Source of the DNA: Amanita rubescens
Lineage: Eukaryota; Basidiomycota; Agaricomycetes; Agaricales; Amanitaceae
DNA: 24,751 nt
Direction of reading: 5' to 3'
Assembly (NCBI GenBank): GCA_015039365.1
Contig: WION01000680.1
Coordinates: 1 to 24,751 of the forward strand
The number at the start of each line of letters is the position of its first letter. Position 1 is the first letter of the stretch. This document shows positions 723-22,953 of this stretch, piece after piece. The notes below the pieces were generated by a model that saw nothing but the letters and a program-made list of their open reading frames with translations, searched no databases and had not been told where the DNA came from. The position numbers and the translations under genes were made by a program.

Positions 723-3700
723 TCAAATATGGGAAATCTGATCATACAGAAACATAAACAGATCATCTGGATCTGAAGGTAGCAATGCAGAATTTAGGTG
801 ATTCTTCACTTTCTCAACATTGCCCTGCTCCTTGAACTGCTTCAAAGCTTCCATTACTGATTCATAAATTGACTTCATCTTCACCCAGAATGCCTGCTTG
901 ACAATGATGAGGATAGCTTGAAAGTGTCAGCTTGTAAGAAAGTAAATTAGACAGGATGCATTACTAGCTAAGATTTGACAGCCTATGGGCTAATCAAACC
1001 AATATCAGCTATGTATATATGTATTAATCCAGATAAAAGTTAGAATCTCACAGTTGTGGAAATCCCATCATCTGTTTCTTCCCCAAACAACACAAGAATT
1101 TCATCCTAAAGATGGCAAAGAGTGAAATTCTAAGGTCAGTTCAGCACTAGACCTACAACCTGACATGAAGATGAAGATGCCTGCTGAGTCATCTTAAATT
1201 GTGTGCTTACCTAAACAGAGGAGAAATTAGAAAAATTGCTATGAATGACAGTAAGTTGTGTTGCACAATCTGTACACAGTGGTATCATCATAAAAAAATC
1301 TAAAATGTTATACATGTGTCCCACTCACTGGCTGTGAAATCCAGATGGAGACATGTAATTGTTAAAAAGAAAGAATATTTCTCACAGCCTGTTTTGATCA
1401 CCAGGTGAATGAGAGAAGAGAGTCTACAAGTTTGACAGATATGAGTAACTTACAAACTGTTGTCAATGTCATCCTATGGTGAAATCTCTACCAGATATAT
1501 GCACACAAATACTTACATCCTGTCAGTCATGAAATCAGACTGCAGCCTGAATAAACAAAATGTGTGTTGTATGTATGACATACATACTAGCATTCATTGG
1601 TAGAATATTTTCAGGAAGGTGAATGGAATGCCACTCAGGATAGATCATAAAATTGTAGCATTACTTCTTCCTGTTGGCCATGAGCTGAATGTGACTACTT
1701 GGACAAAAGAGCATGATACACACCAACTGGTGATTAAAGGATGAGATGTATCTGATGAAGGAAAGAAGGGTATCACTTGCTATCTGTTTATCACAAGATG
1801 CCAAGTCTGTATAGCATATGAAAGCATATTGTCACTCACAAACTGTCAATCATAGCATGAGACATGATGGGTCTGGCAGGCAGAAGAAATGCAATGCTAG
1901 TACTCACTGCCTGAGGATTATTAGAGGGGTTGTGATGAAACTGATTGCAAGGAAAAGTGGCTTCCTCACTCACATCCTATGGATTATTGGATGAGTTGTG
2001 AAGACTAACTAGTAAACATGATTACTGTGTCACTCACACTCTGATGTTTATGAGACAGAAAATTGCCTGAAAAAGGTGTAATGGCTCACTTCCTGTTGGA
2101 GATTGAATATGTGGTGTCACTATCTGTAGAAGTGCAATATCACTCACTCCCTGTTTGTAATAGGATTGGACAAGATAAGACTGCCAGAAATGAAAGGCAG
2201 AGTGATACTTGCTTCCTTTTAATCATGACACAAGATGTGAGATAATGTGTTAGACAAGTGTCCAATGTCACTTACTAGCTGATCATAAGGATGAGTTGTG
2301 TGTGTGATAAAACTACTTCATAATATCACTTACAAACTTGTGGATCACATATGTAAAAATTGTACAACTTCCTGTCAGAGAGGGAAGGTGGCTCACAAGC
2401 TATGGTTCAGGTCATGATATGCTCAAACTTTCTGACAGATGGAACTTCACTTACATCCTGTTAGTCATGAAATGGGTTGGTGAGACTGCCTGTCACCTGG
2501 GAGAACCAAATGAAGTTCACTCACATACTGAAATTGAAAGGTCCAACTTTGAGACTGCCTTGAAGACAAAATTACAGCATCACTCACATCCTAAAGAATA
2601 TGGGATGAAAGGAAAGAAGACAGCTAGATGAAAGTGGCATTCACCTTCTGTTGGTCATGGGATTTGACATCCAGCAGATATCCAGCAGATATGTTATGCT
2701 GCTTGCCTGCTGTTATAGTGGAGCATTGTGATGAGGTTGCCCAGCAGTGAAATCACAGTGATGCTTACAAGCTAAATATTGTATGAAAAGGATAGCCATA
2801 TGAGAAAAGAAGGGGTTGCTCACATACTGAATGGAATGTGATGTGATGTGCAACTGGGAAATAAAGCATCACTCACATTCTTTGGATATGATACAACATG
2901 TGGTGAGACTGCCTATCAGAAAAATAGTGAAGTTTTACTCACTTCCTGAGGGCATATGATAAGAATACTTCATTAAATATGTTGCCTTACTTTCTGTTGA
3001 TCATATATAATATGTGATGACTCTGGCAGGAAAGATTACATTGCCACTCACTTTCTGTTGAGAATATGAAGTACAATGAGATGGCCATTCATAAAGTGCA
3101 ATGTCACTTGTTACATACATACTGTTCAAGGGTTGGGGTGTAAAGAATGTGCTCAGCACACCTGAGAAAGAAAAAGAGTACAGTGTCACTTACTTCCTGT
3201 TAGCAATGGAAAGGGATGTGGTAAGACTTTTTGGCAAATAAACTAATGTGTCACCTACATTCTTTGCATATGGCATCATGGGGTTAGATGATCACTGCCA
3301 CTATGCAAAAAACAAGCACAGTATGACTCACTCTCTGTTAGTGATCAAAGGTAATGGAATGAGAATAGCTTAAGAGGATGATACTGTTACTTACCTCCTG
3401 TTGGTCAGGTATCATTTCTGAGAAGACTGTCCATTAACAAAAAAGCAGTGCCACTAACTTTCTATGTATATTTAATAATGGGCTGTACTAGTCAGACATG
3501 GGTCAGAGAATACTTACAAACTGTTGGCAATCAGGTGTGATGTTGTGATTAAATATTTTATTTCACCCACCCACTGTTTGTCATAGGATGTCCATAAAAT
3601 ATTTGCCTAATAGATAAAACCAATACTTCACACACTTTCTGATGTGGATGGAGGGATGCAAATGAGACCCAAGGGCCTATGTAAATTCTTTACTCACTTC

Positions 3701-5782
3701 CTATTGTTCATGGAATGCAATTGATGACATTGTTAAAATGCTGTAATGTTACTCACATGCTGTTAATCATCAGAAGAGACATGATGAGAGTACTTCCTTG
3801 CATCAAATTGAATGACACTCACATACTGTTAATTTGGAATGAGACTTGATTAGATACAAAGATTAGTGCACTGACATCCTTTTGGTTGTGAAAGCATATC
3901 AGCATGTACTAATGTGCAGAAATAAGTTTAATAGAGCACTTACTTCCTGCATATGTATTGCACATTAATGTGACAAGAAGGATTTCCCTATAGGTACTGT
4001 AGCACTCACCTCCTGGTACAATGAGCCACCTTATGTACATATCCAAATGTCAAGTAGTACTTACAGTCTAATTGTTGGCATGAATTCTGAACTAGAAATG
4101 GGACAGGTTCACGCACTTGCTTTTGGTGATACAATCAGACCTCATTGGCATCAGTTATATTTCATCATCACTTACCCACTGTTGTCTATTGCATTAGATC
4201 TGGTTGCAGGTGCAGTTATAATATTGCTCACTTTCATCAAAAAATGCTATTTTCAAGAAATTTGCATCACTATGTCAGCATATCAGGTTGAGCAGAATTA
4301 CACACATCCTTCACCATGGTATTCAGAAAATAAATTTACAGCAACATGTGAAAGTGCACTCACATTCTAATTCATATTTTTTGAACATCTACTGTTTTAG
4401 GTATGGCTATGAAAAGCACAGTACTTACTTTTTTGATGAACTTGCCAGGGCTTAACATTACTAGTCTTCTCAAAGGCATTTACAGCTTACCCAAAAGTAT
4501 GGAAAGCAGTTGAGGGCATTCCAAATAACCTGACTCCATGAAGGCTCATGATTAACTAGGGCTTGTCTGAAAATTGTCAAAATTTATCACTGGAATTTGG
4601 AATGTGACTCTCACTTAAGGGCTGACTTGACACAAAGATTAAGATTGTTCATTTGTGTTGAGACAAAGAGCTTGTATAGGCTGGTATCATCAATTGCATC
4701 AGCAGTTTTCTCAGTCAATTCAGAACAGTCCATCTCTGGTGTATCCATGTCTATTGAACATTGTATTAGTATCTCTCATGATTCAAAAAATGTTAATTAT
4801 TTTCACCTCGCAAGTGCACATATGCCTTTGGAGGAAATTGAACATTTAAAACTTTGGAAAGGTATGTCTCCTGGAAAACAGTGTCAGCTTTTTCCTCAGC
4901 TTTAGCCCACCTATCTGATCCATCTTGTTCATCATTCAATTTAGCATATTCCTGAATCACCAGAGCATCAAATTTGGTGAATGCATTCACCAAAGGGACT
5001 GTGGGGTATGCCATTTAGGACACAAAAATGAAATCAATAAAAGCACTGGACTTATTTGTGATGGCTTACCTTTCCCTGTCCCTTTAGTAAAGAACTCAAG
5101 TTCTGATGATAGAATGGGGCGAGAGCCATCCATGGGTATACAATACCTATGAAAATGTTGACTAACTGGCCATGGCCATGTAGAAAAAAATTAAGAATAC
5201 CAAATTGCATGCAACTGATCTCCTACTTCAATTGCAGCAGATCGCCTCTCAATGAATTTCCAAACATCCTGAAGCTCCTTGTTGTCCCCAGCTTCAAATC
5301 CCTGTGAATCATGGAAGATAAAGTTACTTCCAGCATATGTAATCTGGTCCTCTATATTGTGTATGCCTCGCTGAAAATATTGCATATCAATCCTAGTAAG
5401 TTTATGCAGAAGTTTACTCACCTCCATCGATGGTGCCAAATGCATTGATGAAAGTTCTGATTATTGGTGTCAAAAGGCAACCACAGCCCCATAGTATACA
5501 GATGAAGATCAAGCATACCTTCAAGCTCAATACCATTTTGATCATATACGATGGGCTTTGTCCCCTTTCCCACACCACAAACCTTCTCAAGGATAGTGGT
5601 CTTGCCTGCATTGGCCCTTCCTATGATGAGAATACGGAAATGGCGGCATTTGTATCGCTCTTTGAGCATATTAACGGAGCCTACACGATGAGAAATTTGA
5701 AGAGTTACTACTAGTAAATGTTGATGTATGCAGATTGCAACGTACATGATTCATTTGTGTTAGAAGCCTCCGACTGCGACAT
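723..5782 (-). CDS. P-loop GTPase, gene M, with about 64 exons
   Basis: Predicted 432-residue protein. The N-terminal half is a P-loop GTPase of the type expanded in Agaricomycetes. The P-loop reads GRANAGKTT, the switch II region FHDSQGFEAG (DxxG), and the G4 motif FTKFD. Exons in transcription order: 5782-5746, 5680-5519, 5456-5422, 5370-5201, 5146-5070, 4998-4807, 4750-4615, 4566-4491 (ends CFPYFW), 4440-4429 (FIKK), then the one-codon array, 1105-1052 (LVLFGEE), 965-967 (Leu) and 896-723 (FWVKMKSIYES..., TGA). Introns of 45-65 nt keep the frame at every junction. The start ATG at 5782 opens a 37-nt first exon. Exon lengths 170, 77, 192, 136, 76, 12, 15 and 54 are identical in gene P. The GTPase call and N-terminal exons are secure; the splicing of the array is inferred from sequence. 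The cellular role is unknown. Confidence 0.85.
965..4366 (-). other. Array of 51 one-codon exons in gene M
   Basis: On the minus strand a 3' splice site (usually CAACAG), three bases and a 5' splice site (GTRAGT type) recur every 50-75 bp. Codon and lowest coordinate, in transcription order: AAT 4364, GAT 4306, [15-nt exon 4232-4246], TGG 4176, CAA 4117, ACT 4065, GAG 4010, GAA 3944, GAT 3876, TAT 3823, CAT 3757, GAA 3698, AAA 3636, TGG 3571, TTT 3518, AAA 3459, GAG 3395, AGA 3332, AAT 3259, GAA 3194, TAT 3119, AAA 3052, AAA 2991, GAA 2943, AAT 2877, TAT 2824, CTT 2769, CAG 2707, AAG 2645, GAT 2588, TAT 2525, GAT 2455, CTT 2397, TTT 2334, CTA 2276, GAA 2213, GGA 2148, GAA 2090, AGT 2038, GAT 1974, GCA 1908, TTT 1840, ATA 1781, TTG 1724, [6-nt exon 1665-1670], TAT 1584, GAT 1517, TTT 1454, GCT 1386, CCA 1329, ATT 1267, GTT 1157, [54-nt exon 1052-1105], CTA 965. 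All are phase 0 and none is a stop. Confidence 0.85.
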
Positions 5783-17943: not shown

Positions 17944-20900
17944 ATGGCAGAGACCCCTGGCAGTAGGAACAATTAAATGTATTTGACCACAACAAAACTT
18001 AAGTGCTGGATACAGACAGTGTGGAACACATTACGGCTCTGAAGGAACGATACAAATGCCCCCATTTTCGCATTCTAATTATTGGGAGAGCAAATGCAGG
18101 AAAAACAACCATTCTCGAGAAGGTTTGTGGGGTAGAGCAAGGAACAAAACCAATCATATATGATGAGAATGGTAAGCTGGATTAATGTGGCAGCCACTTT
18201 TGCATATTCATGAGTCATGACTTTATAGGCACTGAACTAGAACCTTCTACACACCTGACACCATCAATTGAGGTGAATAAAAAAATCAATTGCAAATGTC
18301 ATTGGCATTAATATGCAGCAACTTCTAGAGAGGCACACACAATATTGAGCACCAGATTACATACCATGGGAGTAATTTCATTTTCCATGATTCTGAGGGT
18401 TTTGAATCTGGGGCAACTGAGGAGTTGGAGCATGTTTGGAAGTTCATTGGGAAGCGGTCCACTACAACTGAACTAAAAGATCAGTTGCATGCAATTTGGT
18501 ATCTTTTGAATTTTGGTTGTTAACAGGATCAGATGACTAAGATTTCTCAGGTACTGTGTACCTATGGACAGTCCCCGCCCTCTGCTATCTGCAGAACTTG
18601 ATTTCTTTAATAAAGGGACAGGGAAAGGTGAGCTCTGAGGTTAATCAACACTACCACAGTGCTTGGCTTGGTATGGTGAGAAGCCTCTACTTTGCAGCAA
18701 TGCATACAATTTTATATTCATGACTTGCCTGCATATCATGCAATCTACCAGTCCAAGCTATGGCATGGCAACTAGAATTATTTTCACAGTTCCTTTGGTG
18801 ACCATATTCACAAAATTTGATGGTCAAATAATAGCAGAATATGTCAAATTGAATGATATGGAGAGTGCTCAAGATAAGTGGGAGAAGGCTAGGGAGAATG
18901 CTGAAAATACTTTTCAGACAATTTATCTTCCAAAAATATTGGATAGTAAATGTCCTCCCAAAGCCCATGTGCGACTACAAGGTGAGAGTTATGGACATTT
19001 CTTAGCAGGAGATGCCAACTCTTTGTAGATATGGATGTTCCAGAGAACAATTGTCCTGAACTGACAGAGAAGACTGCTGATGCAATTGATGATGACATTC
19101 TACATGATCTGTTTGTCTCAACACAGATGAACAATCTTGATCTTTGTATCAAATCTGCCCTTCAGTATGAATCACATTGACAATAACATTCCACACTTTT
19201 GACAGCATCCAGATATGTTTTGATTCAACAAGAACCTACATGGCATGGAGTTCTCATCATGGTCCTTTCCAAGTTCCCACATTTCTGGGTATTTTAAAAA
19301 TACTTTTGTGTGTAGTAAGACTGAAAGAGGGACAGGTCAATATAAAGGTGGGCTGTGTGATATCATAGGTGTCTTATTTGCCAAAATGGGTAACAGGATG
19401 TAAGTATAGTGAGATGCCCTTTATTAATTAAACAATGATGATGATTAGAATGTATGTGACACTGTACTTCTACTGCAAGGAAGTGCAAGATGTGTAATGA
19501 TTCTGCATGAACAGTTGGAAGTTCTACATGTGAGTGGTACTCTAACCCTCTCTGGATCAGGATCTGATTGTATACATATATGACAGTGGGTAAGTGGTGT
19601 GGAATAGATATAGAATTTGATAGGTTATGATCCTACAACAGGGGGTAAGTGGCACTACATATTCTGCTACAAGTCTCATCAAATCTCATGTTCCACAACA
19701 GAAAGTAAGTGACATTGCACTTGGAAGTTCCACACATCACATGTGATTATGAATAGAGAGTAAGTGATTGCAGTCATACCACTCATCATTGTTGATGTAT
19801 CATATGATCAGAGAGTGGGTGCATTTGTTTCTAGCATTTTGATCCTATTTTATCTTCAGTTTTATAGGAGGTCAGTAGCATTCATTTTTTCTGCAAGTAG
19901 ACCTTGTTACATACATCTTGAACAACAGAGGGTGAGTTGTTTTTATGTTAAGCTATTGCATCACTGAGTCTCATCCCATATATTGAAGGAAGTGAGTCAC
20001 ACTAAGTTTTTCCAGCAAGGTAGCAGTTGTCACATTGCTTTCATGGCATACAGGCAGTGAGTGACTGAGTGTTCACTGCTAAGCAATCTGACTTTCACAT
20101 CCTGTCCAACAGTATGTGAGTTATGGTGATTTCTGCTAGGAAGCGGTTCACCACACTTTTTTTTTAACAACAGGAGGTGAGTGATGGCACTGTGTTTTGT
20201 CTTGCAGTCTCAATTCATGTCATCCCATGGCCAACAGTCAGTGAGTGATAACAGCTTTTTTTGGAAAGGTAGTCTTGTTGCATCTCATATCTTTTACAAC
20301 AGGAGGTAAGTCATACTGCAATTACAATGTATTTCCCACCATATCTCACCTCATGACAGTATGTGAGTATACTAGATTTTTTTCTTACAGACACTGTTAT
20401 TCTGACATATACATACTATGATCTCCTATGAAAAAAAAAACAGGTTGTGAGCAACCTTTCCTCTCTCCTAGTTTGTATAAGCACATCTCATCCCACAACT
20501 AACAGTATGTAAGTCACACTACAACCTGCTTTGCAAGACATTGTGTCCCATTTCAGCTCATGACCAACAGGTTGTGAGTGATATATATTTCAGTTTCTCC
20601 TGCCATGTGACATCATTATCACAATCATCCATAACCAACAGAGGGTGAGTCAGTTTATTCTTATGTAGGCTCACTACATCACATCTAACAATCAACAGGA
20701 TGTAAGCACTACTGTTGCATTTCTTGCAAGGCTATTGCATCACAGCTCATTTTTTAACCAACTTTAGGCTGTGAGTAGCAGTAGTTCTTCTGCCAGGCAA
20801 TCTCATCATGCCTCATACTATCCTGATCAACAGCAAGTAAGACATGCTGCACTTTTCTGCCAGCTGCTGCATCAGGCTTCTCACTCATTAATTGACAGGA

Positions 20901-22953
20901 TGTGAGTAGCACTTCTGTTCTTTGATACATGATTACATCTCATCCCACAGGGTGTGAGTAATACTGTGCTATTGCTATGAGCTATTTTATAACATTTCCA
21001 ATAGCTTGTAGGTGACACTCTACTCCATAATTTTTCCAGACAGTCAGAGCATATCACTCATTGCATGTCCAACAGGATGTGTGTGACACTGCATGTTTTT
21101 CTGGGACCTGAAGTTGTCTCATCAACCACCTTATCCTATGATCAACAGGAAGTGAGTGTTGCAATTATTGCTGCAAAGCATTTTGTCCCAACTACTTTGG
21201 CCAACAGACAGTAAGTAGTATGCAGTGACTTTTCATGAGAAAATTGCCAAATGGTCACATCACATATGAATAAAAGACTGTATGTGGAGTTGAATATTGA
21301 AATTTGTGCAGTTTGATAATCATATCTCATTGCCAACAGTCTGCAAGTAACATTGCAGCTTATTCAATTTCCAGCCATCTGATCTTACTCACTCAATAGG
21401 CTGTGAGTGATGCTCCAATCTTTTCTTGAGTCTCACCCTGCTGATTGTGTGATCAACAGCAAGTGTGTTTTATTGCATTTTGTTCTGCAAAAGTTATCTC
21501 ATCATATTTCAACCCATGAATAGGAAGTGAGTTTGTATGCTGCAGTTCTTTCTGCCAGGTTATCTTATACATGTCTCATACTAACAGCTTGTGAGTGAAG
21601 TTATGTTTTTCCCCTAAGCAGTCTCTTCACAGAATTTTTTCATAATCCCTAGGAAGTGGGTGACACATCCTGCCTTCAATACAGACTTCTCATCATAAAA
21701 CCAACAGGGAGTAAGCCATTTATCACTTTCATCTGCTAGGTAACCCTTCACATGCCATGACAGCGTGTAAGTGACTTTGAACTACTTTCTTGAAGTCACA
21801 CATCTCATTTTTTGACTAACAGCGAGTGAGTTACATTGCTTAGTATGCAAGTGGCTTTCATCATATTTCAAACAGGGAGTGAGTGAAATTGCAATTTCTC
21901 TCACTGTGTAATTTTATTTAAGATGATCCTGGAATGGCCAAATAGGAAGTAAGTGACATTAACACTCTTTTTACCTTCACCTTTATTCAACCTATTTCAT
22001 GGTCAACAGCAAGTGAGTGATACAGTTTTTTCAACTGCTACATTGTCTTATGCATCACATACTACAAATAAAAGCTTGTGAGTGATTCTACAGGTATGTT
22101 TTGCCTTCATTGCAATCTAATTTAAGAACCAAAAGAGAGTGGGTCATACTCATGTTTCTCCATAAATAATCTCATAATGTCTTGATTATTAGACAGTAAG
22201 TAACACCAGATTTCTTTGCTCACTGTGTCATTTTTCATCTGACCTAACAGAAAGTGGGTAAATATTATTTGTTTCAATCAATCTTTTATGCTAATATTAT
22301 GATATGTGCATAGATTGTAAGATACACTAAGGATTCTCTAATAGCTGCCTCTTGATTTGGTGTATCAAGGCAAGTGATGAAAAAGAGCAAATAAAATATG
22401 CTGACAAACATATAAGGTTGTATGTCCACTGCTGAGATTCTATTGAAATTTTGCTCCTTCATCCTTACTAGTCTAAACTGCAATACCTCTTTGGTGATGA
22501 ATCAGAAAAACTTTCAAGAATCAGTGTAAGGCCTGTGTCTGATTAATTCTGCACTATGATGCAGCTGATGTTGTAACCAGCCCACAGCCTGTCAGCTGTT
22601 AGCTGGTAAGTCACTGTATTGTATTTGTTGTTTTATTTGACCTAATAGTTACTAAGCAACTAATATCCTTGCCAAGCTGTCATTTTGGATCAGGAAACCA
22701 ATCTATGAATCAATCATGGATGCCTTGGAACAGTTTGAAAGACAAGATGATGTGAAGAAACTGAAGCTACAAATCACTTCTGAATCAATGCCTTCCAATT
22801 TGGAAGATTTAATTGCTTTTCTTATGATCAGGTCATCCACATTTGATGGTATGCATTTGATTTACAAGTTATTGTCATCTTCATTTACAATACTTTGTAA
22901 AACCAGCTCTACTGCACCATCCTATGTACTTCCCTTGTGCATCAGGATTTTAA
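17944..22953 (+). CDS. P-loop GTPase, gene P, with about 62 exons
   Basis: Predicted 429-residue paralogue of gene M. Motifs: GRANAGKTT (P-loop), FHDSEGFESG (switch II), FTKFD (G4). Conventional exons: 17944-17962, 18004-18171, 18229-18272, 18329-18498, 18551-18627, 18790-18981, 19029-19164, 19213-19288 (ends KFPHFW), 19336-19347 (VNIK). The one-codon array follows, then 22472-22525 (YLFGDESEK), 22603-22605 (Leu), 22677-22848 (FWIRKPIYES...) and 22946-22953. Frame holds at every junction. Intron 19165-19212 is 48 nt, as in gene M. Gene P splits DENG|TELE with an intron that gene M lacks, and lacks the intron gene M has four codons later. The 3' end is the least certain part: without intron 22849-22945 the frame would run to 23090. 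Role unknown; splicing of the array is inferred from sequence. Confidence 0.85.
19397..22605 (+). other. Array of 49 one-codon exons in gene P
   Basis: Acceptor (mostly CAACAG), three bases, donor, repeated with a period near 61 bp and introns of about 47-81 nt. Codon and first coordinate: GAT 19397, AAT 19449, [15-nt exon 19515-19529], TGG 19587, GGG 19642, AAA 19702, AGA 19757, AGA 19812, GAG 19868, AGG 19929, GAA 19989, GCA 20054, TAT 20113, GAG 20174, TCA 20238, GAG 20303, TAT 20360, GTT 20444, TAT 20506, GTT 20571, AGG 20642, GAT 20699, GCT 20768, CAA 20834, GAT 20899, GGT 20951, CTT 21005, GAT 21076, GAA 21149, ACA 21208, ACT 21277, TCT 21340, GCT 21400, CAA 21460, GAA 21524, CTT 21588, GAA 21653, GGA 21708, CGT 21764, CGA 21823, GGA 21876, GAA 21946, CAA 22010, CTT 22075, AGA 22136, ACA 22193, AAA 22251, ATT 22314, GTT 22417, [54-nt exon 22472-22525], CTG 22603. 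All are phase 0, with no stop codon. Confidence 0.87.

Follow-up and report, generated by a model that had tools for sequence, protein, structure and literature searches.

In a stretch of Amanita rubescens DNA of 24,751 nucleotides (nt) (assembly GCA_015039365.1, contig WION01000680.1, forward strand; hereafter the window), which is part of contig C630 in a genome of 75.7 Mb and 786 contigs, we analyzed a gene of a predicted P-loop GTPase family. In this gene, an array of 48 three-base sites flanked by splice signals follows the GTPase domain and precedes the C-terminal exons; the sites are very probably exons of one codon each, in phase 0, encoding a probably flexible linker. The predicted layout of the gene, for which the related proteins P0001 and P0060 served as guides, is as follows.

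18021 to 19288, plus strand: coding exons of the GTPase domain with ordinary introns, placed by tblastn of P0001 and P0060 onto the window; the last residues, KFPHFW, end at 19288, and 18021 marks the mapped part, not the start codon.
19336 to 19347, plus strand: 12-nt exon encoding VNIK, from the reading of the spliced frame.
19397 to 22419, plus strand: array of 48 predicted three-base exons, one codon each, with a 15-nt exon among the first ones (pattern scan, segmentation and frame reading).
19515 to 19529, plus strand: this 15-nt exon, encoding LEVLH, immediately upstream of the W codon at 19587.
21340 to 21345, plus strand: microexon TCT followed by a GC donor (gcaagt, 21343); L051, a copy of the array, has a GT donor there.
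22472 to 22525, plus strand: 54-nt exon SKLQYLFGDESEKLSRIS, which by visual comparison corresponds to ILPELFSVFGE, where the C-terminal part of P0060 begins.
22581 to 22605, plus strand: 25-nt exon encoding PTACQLLA (tblastn and spliced frame).
22657 to 22847, plus strand: C-terminal exon NILAKLSFWIRKPIYESIMDALEQF...STFD (tblastn and spliced frame), with an approximate 3' end.

P0001, an annotated A. rubescens protein, is 98% identical to the hand-translated GTPase exons. The predicted spliced frame is open from VNIK onward, and it enters the C-terminal exon in register with the match to P0060. From the 12-nt to the 25-nt exon there are 51 introns, which measure 49–100 nt, with a median of 58. 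Of the 48 three-base exons, 45 came from a chain that favours 3 nt, and three (AAA at 22251, ATT at 22314 and GTT at 22417) were added via the frame. A further candidate exon, the 15 bases CTGCCTCTTGATTTG that follow position 22344, was dropped because the intron before it would be 28 nt. The original prediction had placed 49 consecutive 3-nt exons here and extended the array to 22605. The array itself stood, with 48 three-base exons in place of 49. Two of these precede the 15-nt exon, which leaves an unbroken run of 46, and 22605 is the end of the 25-nt exon downstream of the array. The 12-, 15- and 54-nt exons were recovered as it had described them. The sibling arrays L010, L012, L009 and L057 likewise have 15- or 18-nt exons (VNEID, QNDEID, KHNEVD and KHNDID) directly 5' of their own W codons.

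The spacing of the splice signals is concentrated at three bases. A loose pattern (YAG or AAG, any three bases, a GT-type donor) had 42 matches on the plus strand within 19.2–22.8 kb and 3 elsewhere on that strand. Across the genome, CAACAG-NNN-GTRAGT occurred at 3490 exact sites versus 17 for the reversed pattern, while spacings of 1–2 nt (71 versus 46 in the control, 13 of the 71 on contig C749) and of 4–14 nt (271 versus 264) stayed near background. Among CAACAG..GTRAGT pairs counted at every spacing from 0 to 24 in 13 sources, 156 of 159 had exactly three bases between them. A Viterbi segmentation in which exon length was free from 1 to 90 nt was run on 14 sources and gave a chain in 13 (none in L020). 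In these, 360 of the 373 exons of at most 45 nt were exactly 3 nt, and the 59 longer ones are probably missed weak introns. Segmentation scores were 65–1958 on the real strand and 1–37 on the reversed sequence, which gave none for L017. Chance pile-up of sites was rejected on the reversed-pattern and reversed-sequence controls, and exons of another length were rejected on the spacing counts. Thus pattern scan, spacing counts and segmentation agree that three-base sites lie between 3' and 5' splice signals over about 3 kb, as had been proposed. Such arrays are not confined to the window: 10 of the 12 regions fetched from the first 100 of the 3490 sites hold an array of at least five units, L020 holding none and L019 only by a finer decoder. 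The FPHxW motif was found in none of L016, L017 and L020.

Read as codons, the 3490 genomic triplets include only three stops, all TGA, with no TAG and no TAA, whereas about 185 (a fraction of 0.053) would be expected from the base composition of a sample of 156 triplets. VAA triplets number 961 against none for TAA. NAG triplets (57) and NNC triplets are both scarce; the former may reflect avoidance of a second AG acceptor, and the latter donor context or CpG loss. The third base is almost never C, at 38 of 3490 triplets genome-wide and in 1 of 513 decoded exons. Selection was also examined through L051, which is 98% identical to the window array without gaps. Between the two copies, changes were seen in 0 of 150 exon bases, 1 of 230 acceptor bases, 2 of 276 donor bases (one G-to-A within GTGAGT and one GC-to-GT) and 46 of 2113 bases of the intron interior, so that exon and splice bases together (3 of 656) changed less than the intron interior (p=0.0019). 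A dead array was rejected on the near-absence of stop triplets and on this conservation.

The peptides decoded from sibling arrays were compared with intron-free relatives. Searches found 731 GTPase relatives, and 18 of the 120 listed come only from jgi contigs of 1.0–2.6 kb. The best matches were to P0060, P0025 and P0084, each of them a single open frame on a jgi contig of 1.4–1.9 kb; P0060 comprises 445 aa on 1492 bases. P0060 and similar contigs are probably complementary DNA (cDNA) or copies of cDNA, because their uninterrupted frame corresponds to several separate pieces in the window gene. Fourteen arrays were decoded codon by codon and aligned to nine selected proteins with FPH.W, with 200 shuffles each; L016 was left out for want of an FPHxW anchor, and L017, L020, L054 and L055 were also outside this comparison. 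The peptides of seven arrays (L009, L010, L011, L012, L013, L018 and L057) scored above all 200 shuffles, with L009 reaching 116 against a shuffle maximum of 52 and L011 87 against 51. L009 decodes to W-F-E-S-A-D-N-A-A-A-K-E-R-Q-Y-Y-D-D, the P0060 counterpart being WFGQADDSANFERNYYVD, and L013 to E-W-F-E-Q-K-K-E-T-D-R-E-I-E-Y-N-G, with the P0025 counterpart, one residue longer, being KWFEKGKKESDREIEYDG. An earlier, looser decoding gave six of nine arrays above all 300 shuffles; shuffles as high numbered 168 for the window, 2 for L014 and 15 for L015. Since seven of the 14 decoded peptides beat every shuffle, the sibling arrays are probably spliced as read. For the window array, splicing is predicted from its family, frame, signals and conservation. 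Taken together, the near-absence of stops, the conservation of exon and splice bases and the alignment of sibling peptides to intron-free proteins lend good support to the proposal that each exon is one whole codon, with entry and exit in phase 0.

Several observations weigh against this reading. The window peptide itself did no better than shuffled versions, 116 of 200 scoring as high against the nine proteins, and shuffles as high as the real peptide numbered 109 for L051, 119 for L019, 15 for L056, 14 for L015, 7 for L014 and 2 for the window's other gene of this family, which lies on the minus strand. Taken alone, the absence of change in the 150 exon bases shared with L051 is not significant (p=0.07). 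Training of the splice-site matrix drew on these arrays themselves, with their sites assumed to be 3 nt, and the peptide decoder favours 3-nt exons by design; the count over spacings of 0–24 is free of such an assumption and therefore serves as the assumption-free test. The cDNA nature of the jgi contigs is read from the absence of introns. Among the nine comparison proteins only P0060, P0121, P0122 and P0062 reach the C-terminal domain; P0012, P0014, P0025, P0042 and P0084 stop in or after the array-coded part, which could reflect truncated contigs, intron retention or shifts of frame. One gene model of A. rubescens, P0082, skips its own array. Finally, in the young array L054 (C749:1500-7300, minus strand), 17 of 46 units have exons of 0, 1, 2 or 4 nt, which could be assembly noise, decay or real. 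We do not claim these odd lengths as real exons, as 13 of the 46 introns are not 62 nt long and a consensus laid over variable triplets could create them.

The protein encoded by such genes was characterized in its relatives. A Pfam scan of five family proteins returned MMR_HSR1, Arf, G-alpha, Dynamin_N and AAA_23, and gave no NACHT or ankyrin match at E 0.01. Against the gathering score of 21.9 for MMR_HSR1 (PF01926), P0089 (25.2) and P0001 (22.8) lie above and three others (18.1, 18.3 and 21.1) below. In an AlphaFold model of P0060 (predicted template modelling score, pTM, 0.81), the predicted local distance difference test (pLDDT) falls below 50 at residues 1-10, 74-78 and 297-344, the last of which lies inside 294-355, the stretch between FPHYW and ILPELF. 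The model suggests that the array-coded stretch is probably a disordered linker that joins the GTPase to a helical domain. When P0060 is compared with P0121, 279 of 292 positions agree as far as FPHYW and 85 of 90 agree in the C-terminal part, whereas the stretch separating these parts has 36 of 60 positions in common and measures 62 and 79 residues, respectively. A protein search with residues 270-350 of P0025 returned only P0025 and P0084. In Amanita polypyramis P0071 and Hebeloma P0108, the gene models stop exactly at FPFFW and FPNFW, respectively, and given these model ends such arrays may be present in other Agaricales too.

We propose that each intron of about 58 nt would be recognized by intron definition and that introns 3 nt apart would probably be removed one after another; removal by intron definition in a set order, as the original prediction put forward, is plausible. 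Because every unit is one in-phase codon, a skipped exon would cost one residue and never the frame, so that splicing errors would be tolerated and a large number of isoforms would be possible. An alternative to constant inclusion is that each mRNA keeps only some of the single-codon exons, in varying selections, so that one gene yields many linker isoforms. Any subset of the predicted three-base exons of the window would keep the frame, all being in phase 0 and free of stops, and alternative splicing of codon-sized microexons is reported for Tuber NACHT-ANK genes (PMC10197012, PMC3689799). The sole close pair that was compared, P0060 and P0121, carries substitutions in all three of its parts and therefore looks like paralogues rather than isoforms, and we judge such combinatorial use to be possible at somewhat below even chances. 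A non-coding array, in which recursive splice sites or decaying splice motifs lie within one long intron and the triplets never enter the mRNA, would fit the gene model P0082, in which about 2 kb are skipped so that the C-terminal domain follows FPHYW almost directly, and a unit of L054 in which AG directly abuts GT. Non-coding triplets would not show the depletion to three stops in 3490, nor does this account fit the seven arrays whose peptides align to intron-free proteins above all shuffles. The P0082 locus itself (L056, C650:813600-816700) decodes across the skipped array to 21 three-base exons, though its peptide does not beat the shuffles (15 of 200 as high). The non-coding account is therefore very improbable, and we retain the reading of the array as predicted single-codon exons.

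A probable mode of growth for the arrays is that of a minisatellite with a repeat unit of about 65 bp, made up of one intron and one codon; divergence would then leave little beyond splice signals and codons. Tandem Repeats Finder (TRF), run on four sources, found a 65-bp unit in 72.4 copies in L016, 28.5 in L011 and 48.7 in L054, the last at 93%, and no repeat in the window. Since no repeat was found there, the window array is probably too old to be detected by TRF. In L054, the mean pairwise diversity of introns was 0.030 (22 units) versus 0.478 for triplets; 17 of 46 introns were identical and 33 of 46 were 62 nt long, so that near-identical copies lie within one array. Intron homopolymers varied little (CATTTTG in 45, GAAAGG in 46 and CTTTTCC in 41 of 46). 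The arrays on contigs C1 and C170 (L011 and L055) have the same triplets in the same order, at 68 and 67 sites, and are uninformative for origin.

One might instead suppose that a mobile intron, similar to an introner-like element, inserted repeatedly beside itself, the codons being older or made at each junction. The contrast in L054 between near-identical introns and differing triplets speaks for such insertion: 52 of the 59 pairs with at most three intron differences have different triplets, whereas three-base windows inside their introns differ in 14.6%, and departures from the usual length occur in 17 of 46 three-base junctions against 13 of 46 whole introns. However, random insertion would not leave exactly 3 nt between neighbouring introns, and a small set (CAA, CGA, CTT, GAA and GGA) accounts for most codons of L054, as expected from a few amplified units. 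Units of L054 with 0–5 flank differences also share triplets more often (0.17–0.29) than distant units (0.06), a weak trend that fits linkage by descent; in L011, L013 and L016, triplet sharing showed no clear trend with unit similarity. We consider repeated insertion unlikely, and favour an origin in which a few units were amplified, their introns homogenized and their codons varied or selected, as the sequence comparisons suggest. The array would serve to give an expanded family of GTPases a rapidly varying linker, and this family may be of an immune or non-self-recognition type. As a possible affiliation, immunity-related GTPases (IRG), whose fold pairs a G domain with a helical one, were considered. 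Tentatively, and short of an even bet, the array may act as a codon-shuffling device: recombination between the near-identical introns of this minisatellite would add, drop and reorder codons in frame and so rapidly diversify the linker of an immune-type GTPase family, and the device would have arisen independently of the Tuber NACHT genes.

Amanita is ectomycorrhizal, as is Tuber, an ascomycete. The original prediction knew of no comparable run, which proved wrong in kind: NACHT-ANK genes of Tuber melanosporum contain tens of codon-sized, 3-bp microexons that are alternatively spliced, according to passages that cite Iotti et al. 2012 (PMC4986451, PMC10197012, PMC3689799). As these passages describe them, the Tuber nank genes resemble the present ones in that 3-bp exons occur by the tens and that the fungal gene family concerned has expanded and evolves fast. 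Multiple codon-sized microexons are common to that family and, as predicted exons, to the genes here. The Tuber genes encode NACHT-ankyrin receptors, the Amanita genes a basidiomycete family of predicted P-loop GTPases without a match to either domain in the five proteins scanned.

Micro-exon genes (MEGs) of schistosomes and tapeworms have consecutive exons mostly divisible by three that gene finders miss (PMC7653826, PMC10526429), and the array is like them in that skipping would keep the frame and in being missed by gene finders. One definition of a MEG (PMC7653826) asks for seven exons or more, of which half or more are shorter than 70 nt with lengths that are multiples of three, and for a run of at least four; the predicted exons of the window (48 of 3 nt plus those of 12, 15 and 54 nt) have this composition. 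According to PMC10526429, however, most Schistosoma MEG exons are 15 bp (6–81 in the text, 3–81 in the abstract), introns are 0.1–5 kb and the proteins are secreted. The window gene has neither such long introns nor mostly 15-bp exons; nearly all its array exons are 3 nt, its introns are about 58 nt (49–100), and the predicted product is a GTPase. For the single 1-nt exon of Arabidopsis APC11, the authors propose intron definition combined with recursive splicing (PMC4674806). Like such single 1-nt and 3-nt exons, those of the array are too small for exon definition, but the APC11 exon is isolated whereas here there is an array. With 3-nt exons between introns of about 58 nt, recognition across introns, neighbour after neighbour, is likely; the APC11 authors argue likewise for their exon.

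The NWD-type non-self-recognition genes of Podospora, as described in PMC4986451, have repeats homogenized by concerted evolution in which a few codons per repeat vary. The Amanita arrays resemble them in keeping repeats alike while few codons vary; there the repeat is a coding WD unit, whereas here it is an intron carrying one codon. Intron gain by duplication of a stretch with splice signals follows the same principle, with one intron there and tens of intron-plus-codon units here, and the occurrence of many near-identical introns in one genome, a feature of introner-like elements, is seen within the L054 array.

In the open-licence literature that we searched, including microexons in Amanita and 3-nt or single-codon, tandem and basidiomycete microexon topics, no report of these arrays was found among the papers listed. 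The kind of array is already known from the Tuber NACHT-ANK genes, with their tens of microexons of codon size; what had no counterpart among the papers listed is its occurrence in this GTPase family and phylum, its scale across the genome and the repeat of an intron plus one codon. Should the reading be right, the spliceosome performs dozens of consecutive splices, each adding three bases, probably in scores of genes within a single genome. Standard annotation would then be largely blind to such arrays: when residues 255-445 of P0060, a span that takes in the array-coded stretch, were searched against 5.8 billion predicted proteins by a method that reaches only relatives sharing short exact words, the matches were P0060 itself and two others. 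Arrays of codon-sized exons in expanded fungal gene families would be represented twice, in Tuber and here, apparently independently. The arrays offer a natural test bed for the recognition and ordering of introns 3 nt apart and suggest a route to codon-by-codon protein variation via recombination in introns.

The second gene of the family in the window has a predicted layout of the same type.

726 to 5693, minus strand: GTPase exons at 5693-4488, 46 predicted three-base exons at 4366-1329, and a C-terminal match at 968-726.

The array L016 (C3:122000-131999) has 77 predicted introns in the fetched stretch and matching sites farther along its contig; one loosely matched unit there reads TGA.

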